NCBI GenBank assembly: GCA_008501585.1
Contig: QQUN01000074.1
Coordinates: forward strand, 1-35,832
Source of the DNA: Pseudomonadota bacterium
GTDB lineage: Bacteria; Pseudomonadota; Gammaproteobacteria; Burkholderiales; Rhodocyclaceae
Direction: 5' to 3'
DNA: 35,832 bases
Position numbers and translations under genes: made by a program. Below are positions 23,905-26,757 of the stretch, piece after piece (within the stretch, counting starts at the first letter, position 1; every line of letters starts with the position of its first letter). The notes beneath the pieces were generated by a model, which had not been told where the DNA came from, made no database searches, and saw only the letters and a list, made by a program, of their open reading frames with translations.

Positions 23905-24369
23905 ATGAACCCCCGCCATCTCCCCCACACACTCACCGCCGCCGTGCTGGCCGCCGGCCTCGGCTCCGCGCACGCCGCCGCCGACCCCACGGTGATTCCG
24001 CTGACCCAGGTCGGCTGCCAGTTCCTGGAGAGCGAACACGGCACCAACCACGGCTACACCCCGGCAACGGCCGACGACTGCCGCCGCATCAACGCCGAGA
24101 ACGGCGACCAGCGGCTGAGCCAGGCCAAGGTGCTGACGCTCACGCCGGGACGCTACGTGTTCCGGGTCAGTAACCAGAACGTGCCCTACGAACTGGGCTT
24201 CTGGCTGCGCGGCGACGGGCTGGCGGCCCGCGCGCTGCTGCCCAGCGTGTCGGGCGGCGGCCTGGTCACGGGCAAGACGCAGGACTACGAGATCGAACTC
24301 AAGCCCGGCGAGTATGTGTACTCCTGCCCGCTGAACCCGACCCCCGACTACAAGCTCGTGGTGCGCTGA
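23905..24369 (+). CDS. periplasmic cupredoxin-like protein
   Basis: 154 residues with a clear signal peptide (cleavage after AHA, about residue 25). The mature part ends in the beta-sandwich pattern LTLTPGRYVFRVSNQNVPYELGFWLRG..., KTQDYEIELKPGEYVYSCPLNPTPDYKLVVR, where GEYxYxCPLNP resembles the metal-ligand loop of cupredoxins. The usual His and Met ligands are not in this loop; only the Cys is in place. Two more Cys (VGCQFL and DDCRRI) could form a disulfide. Copper binding is therefore possible but unproven. GGAG nine bases before the ATG. The gene converges on the DUF6969-like gene with a gap of 14 bases. Confidence 0.65.
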   Translation: MNPRHLPHTLTAAVLAAGLGSAHAAADPTVIPLTQVGCQFLESEHGTNHGYTPATADDCRRINAENGDQRLSQAKVLTLTPGRYVFRVSNQNVPYELGFWLRGDGLAARALLPSVSGGGLVTGKTQDYEIELKPGEYVYSCPLNPTPDYKLVVR

Positions 24370-24383
24370 ACCCGGCGCGGCGC

Positions 24384-25115
24384 TCAGCGCAGCGACTCGG
24401 TCAGCGCCTCGGCGAAGGTATCGACGGCGATCGGCAGGTAGCCGATCACGTCGATGCGCCGGTCCTCGTACACATCCTCGTCCGGGCGGTCGGCCTGGCA
24501 TTCGGCCATCACCGCATCGCGGTGGCGCAGCAAGCCTTCGATCTGCGGGCCGTAGAGCCGCAGCATGGCGCTCAGCCAGCGGTTGGTCGGCCACGACGGA
24601 AAGGCGTGGTCGATCTCGAAGTGCGGCAGGATGGCGATGGCGTCCTCGGCAGCAAACCAGGACTCGTCGGTCACCCAGCGATTGGTGGTGAACAGCCCCG
24701 ACGGGTAGCCCCAGCCGTCCATCGACACGGCGACCAGATGGCAGATCGCGTCGTCGCCGGCCGGCCGGGCCTCGCTGGCATGCGCCACCGTCAGCGGCGC
24801 ACAGCCATCGGGAATGCCGCCGGCGCGCACGAAGGTATGGAAATGCCCATGCTCGGCATCGACACCCCGGTGAGCATGGTAGTAGTACTGGGCGTGGCTG
24901 TCGCCGTCAAAAACATCGTCAGCCGGATAGTGGTCCATCTCGACAAACTCGCCGCCACCGCGCAACACCTCGCCCACCACATTCAGGCCGCCCTTGCGCA
25001 GTACCCGGTAGCACTCCGCGATCTCGCGGGCGGCGGCCTGCATCTGCATGCGCCGGGCGCGCGGCACGCCTGCCAGCTCGGGCAGGAAATCGTCCAGTCG
25101 AAGCATCTCGGCCAT
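24384..25115 (-). CDS. DUF6969-like conserved protein
   Basis: 243 residues without a signal peptide or membrane segment. It has RKGGLNVVGEVLRGGGEFVEMDHYP, SHAQYYYHAH, EHGHFHTF, HLVAVSMDGWGYP and LFTTNRWVTDESW. The His-rich middle is strongly patterned and may bind metal, but no catalytic role is known to me. The assignment to the DUF6969 family is from memory. GGAGGG upstream of the ATG. It is the last gene of a possible - strand run with the Cys-rich protein, but 375 bases separate them, so an independent transcript is likely. Confidence 0.75.
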   Translation of the reverse strand: MAEMLRLDDFLPELAGVPRARRMQMQAAAREIAECYRVLRKGGLNVVGEVLRGGGEFVEMDHYPADDVFDGDSHAQYYYHAHRGVDAEHGHFHTFVRAGGIPDGCAPLTVAHASEARPAGDDAICHLVAVSMDGWGYPSGLFTTNRWVTDESWFAAEDAIAILPHFEIDHAFPSWPTNRWLSAMLRLYGPQIEGLLRHRDAVMAECQADRPDEDVYEDRRIDVIGYLPIAVDTFAEALTESLR

Positions 25116-25490
25116 GGCAGGCCCTCCCGTACAACGGGCGCCCGCAGGCGCCCGGTTTTGGCACCCGAGGGCACCTGGTGTTCAGCTCGCCGTCACATCG
25201 ACAATAGCGGCGACGGCCCTCAGGGGCAAGCGCTGCGAGGCGTCGCCGCACGCGGACTCGCGGCACGGGAGGCCTGTCCTGGCCGCCTCGCGGTCGCGTG
25301 CGCGACACCGGCGTCACGGCCCGACGGCCGATACAGCGCCACCGCTGGCCAACCGCCGGACCGCCAACATGGCCGCGGTCAGGGCACGAGGGGGAAAGCT
25401 TGGGTCATGGGCGCCGCCCGCGCGCGACGAAGCGGTGGACGGCGCCTGGGTGGGGCAGCCCGCCGCGCCACGGCGGGCCGGATCGTCACA
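25116..25490. other. 375-base gap without a supported gene
   Basis: Between the Cys-rich gene and the DUF6969-like gene. Open frames on both strands have Arg/Ala/Pro-rich shadow composition and no ribosome sites. Apart from the hairpin near 25458 and the ribosome site at the right edge of the DUF6969-like gene, I see nothing definite. It must contain the promoter of the DUF6969-like gene if that gene is transcribed on its own. Confidence 0.5.
25458..25478 (-). terminator. hairpin after the Cys-rich gene
   Basis: GCCCGCCG and CGGCGGGC form an eight-base-pair stem with a five-base loop, 12 bases past the stop of the Cys-rich gene. No T tract follows on the - strand, so it is a terminator candidate only. 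Confidence 0.4.
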
Positions 25491-25760
25491 TCACATCTTC
25501 TTGGCCGCGCACGGATTCTTGGCTGCGCACGGGTTTTTCGCCGCGCACGGATGCTTCGCGGCACACGGGTTGGCGGCGCACGGGTTCTTGGCCGCGCAGG
25601 GATTTGCCGCGCACGGGTTCTTCTTGGCGGCACACGGATGCTGCGCCGCGCACGGGCCCTTCCTCGGGGCGCAGGTGGCGTAGGCCATGCTGCCGGCGGC
25701 CATCAGGCCAGCGGCGACAAAGGCGGTGGCAAGCTTGCGGGCGGTCGGGTTCTTGGTCAT
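25491..25760 (-). CDS. exported Cys-rich PCAA-repeat protein
   Basis: 89 residues. A Sec signal peptide (1-28, cleavage after AYA) is followed by a 61-residue mature part with ten Cys (30, 37, 43, 50, 55, 61, 66, 72, 78, 84) in nine near-identical units of (N/H/G)-P-C-A-A-(K/N/Q), spaced five to seven residues. There is no acidic residue in the mature chain; Lys, Asn and Pro fill the rest. The repeat is reminiscent of other exported Cys-repeat peptides, such as the HvfA/bufferin precursors modified by MNIO enzymes and linked to copper, but no MNIO (DUF692) or partner gene is in the window. ATG 25760 has GGAGA nearby; longer frames to 25916 lack one. A 7-bp hairpin (25815-25832) lies upstream. 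Metal or thiol buffering is inference. Confidence 0.75.
   Translation of the reverse strand: MTKNPTARKLATAFVAAGLMAAGSMAYATCAPRKGPCAAQHPCAAKKNPCAANPCAAKNPCAANPCAAKHPCAAKNPCAAKNPCAAKKM
25500..25680. repeat. tandem imperfect 15-18 base repeats encoding PCAA units
   Basis: About nine copies of a unit such as GCCGCGCACGGGTTCTTG, reading CAAGAACCCGTGCGCGGC on the coding strand. Units are 15 or 18 bases depending on whether a Lys codon is present. Synonymous differences between copies show that the protein repeat is maintained by selection, while length differences suggest slippage or unequal exchange. Confidence 0.8.
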
Positions 25761-25866
25761 GGGAATCTCCAGGTCTCTGTGTTGTGATGGGCGGACGATG
25801 TGTTCCGCACTCGCCCACTGCCGATGCAGCGGACTCACCCACCAGACCGTGGCCTCTCGCCAATCC

Positions 25867-26757
25867 TTACATCGGCGGGTCGCGGACCAGGCGCAGCCAG
25901 AACACGCGGCCGTCATCGAGCGTCAGGCGCCAGCGGTCGGCGCCATCGGCCTGCAAGGCGCTGTCGATCCGTGCCGGCAATGCCACGCTCGCCAGCGTCT
26001 GCCACTGGCCGTCCCAGCGCAGCAGTTGCAGGCGCCGGTGGCGCTGGTCGGGCACCAGCAAGGCATCGCGGTCGCCCATGCGCACCACCTGCCCCAGGCC
26101 CAGCGCCGTGCTGCCGAGGCGGTGGGTGCTGACATCGCCGGTGCGGGCGAAGGGCGTCAGCCGCGGCGGGGCGATGTGGTAGAGCGTCAGCACGCCGCCG
26201 AGGTGGGGGGTGACCACGGCAGCGAGGTCCAGCTGCCCGTCGCCGTCGAAATCGCCGGCCCCGAGCGGATTGAGCCAGCGATTGGGCTGCCCGATGAAGT
26301 CGCTGGCCGCATGGCGTACCAGCCCGGCCCCCTCGACACGCCAGAGGGTGAGCGCGGCGCCGGCAGCGGCGTCGCTCTCGACCACCATCACCGCATCGTC
26401 GCCTGCGCCCGCCAGGGCCACGAGGCGCGGCACGAGATCCTCGAACACGCGCGTCGCCGGCAGGGTGGCCACATGGGTGTGGCCGTCCGCCGAGTCGATC
26501 CGCAGTTGCGCCGCTTCGAGCCCGTCGCCGAGCACAGCATGCGCATAGCGGTCGGTCGGCGCCGCCAGCCAGGCCGCGCGGATGGGACCGCGCCCGAGCG
26601 CAACGCGGCTGTGCGGCAGCTGGTCGGGACGCACCGCCGGTGTATCGGCCGGCGCGGTGTGCACCGCCGCCTCCAGGGTCAGCTCAAGGGCGTTGGCCGG
26701 GACCTGGCCGGCGAGGACGGCCAGGACGAGCAAGTACTTCGGCGCGTGACATGGCAT
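25867..26757 (-). CDS. exported FG-GAP/VCBS-like repeat protein
   Basis: 296 residues with a signal peptide (1-23, cleavage after ANA). A clear FG-GAP/VCBS unit is GAGDFDGDGQLDLAAVV, with the Asp-rich calcium loop DFDGDGQLD; weaker units (ALVALAGAGDDAVMVV, VVRMGDRDALLV) suggest a whole beta-propeller. Such proteins are periplasmic or surface-bound and bind proteins or carbohydrates; the partner is unknown. ATG 26757 has a strong GAGGAG site. The frame stays open upstream to 27033, inside the MFS gene, but has no coding character there. The MFS stop is 148 bases upstream, so read-through co-transcription is possible. Confidence 0.75.
   Translation of the reverse strand: MPCHAPKYLLVLAVLAGQVPANALELTLEAAVHTAPADTPAVRPDQLPHSRVALGRGPIRAAWLAAPTDRYAHAVLGDGLEAAQLRIDSADGHTHVATLPATRVFEDLVPRLVALAGAGDDAVMVVESDAAAGAALTLWRVEGAGLVRHAASDFIGQPNRWLNPLGAGDFDGDGQLDLAAVVTPHLGGVLTLYHIAPPRLTPFARTGDVSTHRLGSTALGLGQVVRMGDRDALLVPDQRHRRLQLLRWDGQWQTLASVALPARIDSALQADGADRWRLTLDDGRVFWLRLVRDPPM

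Follow-up and report, generated by a model that had tools for sequence, protein, structure and literature searches.

A family of exported Cys-array peptides linked to DUF6969, viewed from a Rhodocyclaceae locus

The closest described counterparts of the locus studied here are small exported Cys-rich peptides and the periplasmic thiol partners of SoxA-type cytochromes. According to the available portion of the paper on the MNIO landscape (PMC12452194), bufferins chelate copper and are Cys peptides that the cell exports. In TsdA, the heme-ligand Cys forms an S-thiosulfonate, which SoxAX is thought to hand to a carrier thiol, and SoxA-family enzymes more generally join thiosulfate to another thiolate (PMC4423706, in the portion available). 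We analyzed a stretch of 35,832 nucleotides from a member of the Rhodocyclaceae (here called the window), which carries a gene for an exported peptide with many Cys next to a gene of the family DUF6969. Words starting with PCAA or NPC are absent from the available main text of PMC12452194, and the strings NPCAAK, NPCAAN, NPCNPC, and PCAAK appear in the literature searched only in papers with unrelated titles. Within titles and the beginnings of abstracts, literature on MNIO and bufferins, YeeE, SoxA and TsdA, exported RiPP precursors, and Denitromonas contains no description of the array family or of DUF6969.

The Cys-array peptide and its family

The peptide gene occupies 25491..25760 on the minus strand and encodes 89 amino acids plus a stop codon, an assignment based on the ORF, homologues, and the codon pattern. 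The N-terminal part of the translation is MTKNPTARKLATAFVAAGLMAAGSMAYA, followed by 61 residues beginning TCAPRK. Read by eye, residues 1 to 28 (25677..25760, minus strand) form a Sec signal peptide cut after AYA, which precedes a Cys-rich core, the mature array of residues 29 to 89 (25494..25676, minus strand). Counted on the translation, the mature peptide contains 10 Cys (16%), 10 Pro, and no Asp or Glu, with successive Cys-Cys spacings of 7, 6, 7, 5, 6, 5, 6, 6, and 6. The core is built of [N/H]PCAA(K) units; over the whole array, the units are mostly GPC, HPC, or NPC followed by AA and in some cases K, with 5 to 7 residues each. The initial annotation had described an exported 61-residue peptide with ten Cys in PCAA repeats, about 16% Cys at five- to seven-residue spacing, and no acidic residues, and translation and counting confirmed all of this, with the signal peptide judged by eye. 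The peptide (P0001) matched no NCBIfam family up to an E value of 1 and no Pfam family up to 0.01.

Because further frames are open across the same bases, including a plus-strand ORF of 421 aa, openness alone is no proof of coding, and other evidence carries the claim. A GGAG that is the likely ribosome-binding site (25767..25770, minus strand) lies 6 bases ahead of the peptide ATG, and codon differences between relatives are mainly synonymous: 17 synonymous and 3 amino-acid-changing differences separate the window from the related genome G001 over 90 codons, and 21 synonymous and no amino-acid-changing differences separate the relatives G004 and G009 over 85 codons. On these two grounds, we regard the frame as coding. 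The array is also beyond chance, given that the two-unit PC[A/G]A DNA pattern, which occurs five times in the peptide's own genome, has zero occurrences in 353 of the 369 class genomes sampled (the own genome is among the 369). Directly upstream on the same strand, 25867-26739 encodes an FG-GAP-like protein (E value 8.5e-6, just under the cutoff), a gene that close relatives have as well.

The peptide is a member of a conserved and wide family. Matches were found in 10 of 41 genomes comprising its own and relatives; of the ten genomes in its genus, its own among them, nine have a match. A genome-wide pattern scan returned at least 594 matches, at least 482 of them encoding relatives of the array. 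The initial annotation had proposed a homologue search for PCAA repeats, and the many homologues found keep the Cys spacing. We retained 79 array loci from among the matches listed in the scan; among these listed matches, the loci come from beta-, gamma-, alpha-, and deltaproteobacteria, Rokubacteria, Nitrospinota, cyanobacteria (Acaryochloris and others), and tube-worm endosymbionts. All 79 have an ORF with at least four array units. An array protein with CxxCH is encoded at 53 of the 79 loci, and an array protein without it likewise at 53. Arrays are joined to more than one type of domain: in a Rokubacteria MAG (L029:15181-15720) and in the MAG ODZ_NOB7a (L034:7344-8024), NPCAA or NPCGG arrays surround a different small domain without CxxCH. 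In a cyanobacterial MAG (L068:7986-8657), an NPCAAK array is followed by a YHS domain (Pfam E value 9e-7, just under the cutoff); PF22308, the DUF6969 family, was not found in that genome.

DUF6969 and its pairing with Cys-repeat peptides

The next gene downstream of the peptide (24384..25115, minus strand) encodes a 243-aa DUF6969 protein (PF22308, E value 8.3e-83, 277.3 bits against a gathering cutoff of 27). No signal peptide is visible in it by eye, so the protein should remain cytoplasmic. We know of no activity for DUF6969, and the family is not named in the literature searched. Among 106 loci with a match, removal of near-duplicates and fragments left 71 sequences, in which 11 residues are invariant: H80, H82, E88, G90, H91, F92, H93, H126, G136, N145, and W147. 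The set reads HxH...ExGHFH...H...NxW, six of the 11 are His or Glu, and the window protein retains every one. DUF6969 is a candidate enzyme. No other Pfam family occurs in more than three of the 71 members, and sequence and PDB profile searches found no related solved structure, only weak matches to ApbE in another part of the protein. Cupin and cysteine dioxygenase were rejected as relatives: in a comparison of profiles rather than folds, hhalign probabilities were 0.1% for cupin and 0.2% for cysteine dioxygenase (four sequences only), which equals the baseline of 0.1 to 0.6% from nine unrelated families, with a positive control at 100%.

Counting from the array side, DUF6969 is present at 56 of the 79 loci; the array gene is upstream and on the same strand in 50 of these 56, and within 1.5 kb in 49. 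We also searched for PF22308 in 39 genomes behind 40 of the 79 loci, chosen to cover all 23 loci without DUF6969 nearby. It was present in 23 of the 39 genomes and not found in 16, many of which are MAGs of unstated completeness. Six of the 23 loci belong to genomes that have DUF6969 elsewhere, and 17 to the 16 genomes in which it was not found, which indicates that the array does not always need DUF6969.

Counting from the other side, 30 of the 369 class genomes and 11 of the 299 phylum genomes have a PF22308 match, with the own genome in both counts. The sample for this reverse test consisted of 39 DUF6969 loci, each at most about 3.6 kb long and each from a different genome; these 39 genomes were not chosen for arrays and exclude the own genome. 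As controls, we used 93 windows of 3.6 kb from 20 stretches hand-picked in 20 of these genomes; one stretch (L190) was shortened to 5 kb because its end reaches a known array. Our criterion was a Cys-centered tripeptide repeated within 60 residues. At three or more repeats, 26 of the 39 DUF6969 loci were positive (ORF within about 1.5 kb) compared to 4 of the 93 controls, and these four resemble wrong-frame readings (motifs ACA, RCR, and TCR). At four or more, the counts were 19 of 39 and 0 of 93; two or more repeats gave no separation (38 of 39 and 68 of 93). Inspection by eye added six loci with low-copy PC peptides (L114, L122, L124, L128, L131, and L143), one genome (G635) with the array about 1.2 kb past DUF6969 on the opposite strand, and one (G477) with DUF6969 at a contig end and the array on another contig. 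By criterion and eye together, 34 of the 39 loci or genomes have an array peptide, the control figures being those of the criterion alone. No array peptide was found for the other five (L112, L113, L132, L134, and L139) in the wider stretches looked at, and an array profile, which would miss other repeat types, matched in two of eight genomes searched. The repeat criterion had been devised after a looser one, any exported Cys-rich ORF, had given too much noise to serve as a test. With two thresholds, on the Cys count and the Cys fraction of each candidate ORF, the looser criterion gave 32 DUF6969 loci versus 47 controls at two or more Cys, 31 versus 35 at three, 29 versus 26 at four, and 19 versus 18 at its strictest (n = 39 and 93 throughout). 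Taken from both directions, these counts make it very probable that the array peptide family and DUF6969 are partners.

The peptides beside DUF6969 differ in their repeats. In addition to NPCAAK, we found NPCAPSAR (L118 to L120), NPCAPG (L110), NPCGP (L141 and L142), TCAA (L116), CCG (L117), GCCAAE (L140), and, at 13 loci, a [S/N]PC[G/S]L[D/N]-like repeat behind a conserved N-terminal segment ending [I/V/L]DHT[R/S]. Repeat type goes with DUF6969 clade: the SPC-DHTRH type accounts for 11 of 12 members of one clade (support 0.998), NPCAPSAR for all three members of another (1.0), and the CCG and TCAA loci pair (0.998). Twelve of the labels on this tree were set by hand and one locus is unlabeled; the NPCAA loci had been picked for their arrays, while rows L104 to L132 had not. 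The small peptides of L121 to L131, L133, and L143 have a near-constant hydrophobic segment with an IDHTRH-like end and variable SPC repeats, and they adjoin DUF6969 and, mostly, genes for YeeE and rhodanese; this operon merits attention in itself. At L135:213-1358, a large array protein of different make, with a CHACH heme motif near its C-terminus, adjoins DUF6969 on the downstream side. A candidate leader motif, N[PR]x[AP]..[RK], was found in 14 of the 107 different N-termini taken from loci at which DUF6969 is not known to be missing (L009 and L010 unchecked) and in 0 of 24 others, and was rejected as too weak and not general.

The array cytochrome and other neighboring genes

In the relatives listed, the usual gene order is an array peptide, an array cytochrome, or both, then DUF6969. 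The array cytochrome, encoded at 53 of the 79 loci, has NPCAA arrays on either side of a domain with one CxxCH. The one example scanned (L036) matched Pfam SoxA-TsdA_cyt-c (PF21342) with 44.3 bits against a cutoff of 27 (E value 1.8e-11), and in NCBIfam the match to SoxA was under the cutoff, at 35.7 of 110 bits. Across 20 aligned array cytochromes, the CxxCH and one more Cys are invariant, and weak hits (E values 0.022 and 0.032) place the latter opposite a Cys in SoxA chains of known structure. At L097:6759-7631, a protein of the FGE type (PF03781, a family with Cys-oxidizing members) adjoins an array cytochrome.

The window lacks the array cytochrome gene at its usual place. Within the compared stretch of 24001-26500, positions 24161-25158, 25181-25231, and 25483-26500 align to G001 at 88 to 91%. 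The intervening 25232..25482 has no match in the 11 relative loci compared; at this site, G001 and others encode the SoxA/TsdA-like cytochrome with arrays on either side. The window keeps the genes for the peptide and DUF6969. The own genome has a single array gene, with no second one found, and no match to PF21342, a weak negative in that the control genomes were also all without a match.

We counted neighbors at the 79 array loci with HMMs built from these same loci, and found ECF sigma factors at 24, YeeE at 23, multiheme cytochromes at 21, DUF302 at 17, cupredoxin-like proteins at 16, DUF3179 at 15, zf-HC2 anti-sigma factors at 13, TlpA at 8, FGE at 7, DoxX at 4, MNIO at 3, and rhodanese at 2. 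One representative each of the YeeE, multiheme, DUF302, FGE, and rhodanese clusters was scanned; the ECF sigma, zf-HC2, DUF3179, TlpA, DoxX, and MNIO clusters are what we take them to be from their sequences, as are the genes presumed to be MerR-like (8) and MerT-like (5) among 80 clustered neighborhoods. YeeE is present at 12 of 13 SPC-type loci. YeeE or rhodanese was found at 19 of the 39 DUF6969 loci and in 2 of the 93 control windows, both from one stretch, a comparison with some circularity since two of these loci supplied the rhodanese profile, and array loci the YeeE profile. In the window, a cupredoxin-like gene (23905..24369, plus strand; PF13473, E value 0.0076, under the cutoff) is convergent with DUF6969, and no metal-resistance family matched among the 10 window proteins scanned.

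Possible roles and comparison with described systems

Our preferred reading, offered tentatively, is that the peptide may be the precursor of a periplasmic Cys array that works with DUF6969, that DUF6969 acts on its Cys, and that a sulfane-sulfur carrier would be the most likely product. DUF6969 would be a metal enzyme of the cytoplasm whose target is the Cys in the x-P-C motif, which it would either modify or load with sulfur, and the Sec system would then export the chain. The exported array would be a thiol carrier with many sites, its cargo most likely being sulfane sulfur that originates in thiosulfate or sulfide. Many relatives also encode a SoxA/TsdA-like cytochrome with arrays of its own, which would exchange sulfur and electrons with the peptide; in the window genome, where that gene is missing from its place, the peptide and DUF6969 would remain. 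Action on Cys before export is suggested by the pairing of DUF6969 with many unlike Cys peptides, by invariant residues of the kind seen in metal sites, and by its predicted cytoplasmic location; on this evidence, modification or loading of Cys by DUF6969 is a finely balanced proposal that we hold with some reserve. The SoxA/TsdA-type cytochrome, YeeE, and rhodanese point to the handling of sulfane sulfur, and we lean slightly toward a role in sulfur rather than metal chemistry. A broader and more doubtful proposal is that DUF6969 could be a new class of metal-dependent RiPP enzyme acting on exported Cys-repeat precursors, mostly with x-P-C motifs (NPCAAK, NPCAPSAR, and SPCGLD; also TCAA and CCG), and perhaps inserting sulfur from YeeE and rhodanese. 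Its products, alone or fused to SoxA-type cytochromes, could constitute an undescribed periplasmic system for sulfur or soft metals in several phyla.

The strongest alternative, although we consider it unlikely, is that the arrays carry sulfur without being modified, like a SoxYZ with many arms: cytochromes of the SoxA kind would couple sulfur from thiosulfate or sulfide to the array thiols, and DUF6969 would handle cytoplasmic sulfur and never touch the peptide. In its favor, relatives have a SoxA/TsdA-type cytochrome flanked by arrays, and 53 of the 79 loci encode an array cytochrome; SoxA-family enzymes do couple thiosulfate to another thiolate (PMC4423706, in the portion available), YeeE and rhodanese genes adjoin DUF6969, and 16 array genomes are without a DUF6969 that could be found. 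However, DUF6969 is tied to very unlike Cys peptides even where a 14-kb stretch contains no array cytochrome (L160 and L162), and no array cytochrome was detected in the window genome, either by the search for array genes or by the PF21342 search, the latter weak for want of matching controls.

A role in buffering copper, mercury, or another soft metal in the periplasm is slightly less likely; plain or modified thiolates would bind the metal, in the way that bufferins bind copper (PMC12452194, in the portion available). The initial annotation had likewise suggested that the peptide could chelate copper or another soft metal. Ten Cys in 61 residues would suit such a buffer, as would the cupredoxin-like genes at 16 of the 79 loci and the presumed MerR-like and MerT-like neighbors, but such genes turn up at fewer loci than do YeeE (23 of 79) and the array cytochrome (53 of 79), and none of the 10 window proteins scanned matched a metal-resistance family. 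It is very improbable that the ORF is a product of chance or a decaying relic of cytochrome gene loss: several frames are open over the repeat and the operon lacks a gene that relatives have, but the synonymous pattern, the conserved N-terminus, the GGAG before the ATG, and the intact DUF6969 all argue against it. Least probable of all is the reading in the initial annotation of a RiPP of the bufferin/HvfA kind modified by an MNIO enzyme encoded elsewhere, which fits an exported Cys-rich peptide and the MNIO gene near 3 of the 79 loci, but which is contradicted here, unless the assembly misses the gene, by a PF05114 search that found nothing in the own genome, which is 99.99% complete, while 2 of 14 control genomes matched, and disfavored by 25 of the 39 array genomes searched being without MNIO and only 14 having it. 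The idea that the enzyme lies elsewhere may itself be wrong, as a candidate enzyme, DUF6969, is encoded by the next gene downstream, within the window.

Returning to the preferred reading, the analysis connects DUF6969, whose invariant residues resemble those of enzymes, with a broad group of exported peptides and cytochromes that bear Cys arrays. Should DUF6969 modify the arrays, exported Cys peptides could be made without any MNIO enzyme; should it load sulfur, the array would be a periplasmic sulfur carrier to study in sulfur oxidizers and denitrifiers.

Compared to bufferins and other MNIO RiPPs (Buf1, Buf2, EGKCG/oxazolin, and CxxxxC types), the system shares a small Sec-exported Cys-rich peptide that varies in repeat number and length, and an adjoining gene for a cytoplasmic candidate enzyme; it differs in that this neighbor is DUF6969 and the own genome is without MNIO. 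The array system may work like the bufferin system but is not a member of it, because the defining enzyme was searched for and not found. As with SoxYZ and SoxAX, the array would be a periplasmic thiol partner for a SoxA-type cytochrome, but it has many Cys where SoxYZ has one reactive Cys, and it also occurs fused to the cytochrome. The array cytochrome exceeds the Pfam cutoff for the SoxA/TsdA family (PF21342) in the one protein scanned; unlike TsdA, which has two hemes, it has one CxxCH and NPCAA arrays on both sides, and it was not found in the window genome. Finally, SPC-type loci resemble thiosulfate uptake by YeeE/TsuA and YeeD in that a YeeE-like gene adjoins a gene for a Cys protein, but here that gene encodes a small peptide of SPC repeats whose N-terminal segment is hydrophobic, and the genes for DUF6969 and, mostly, rhodanese come after it.
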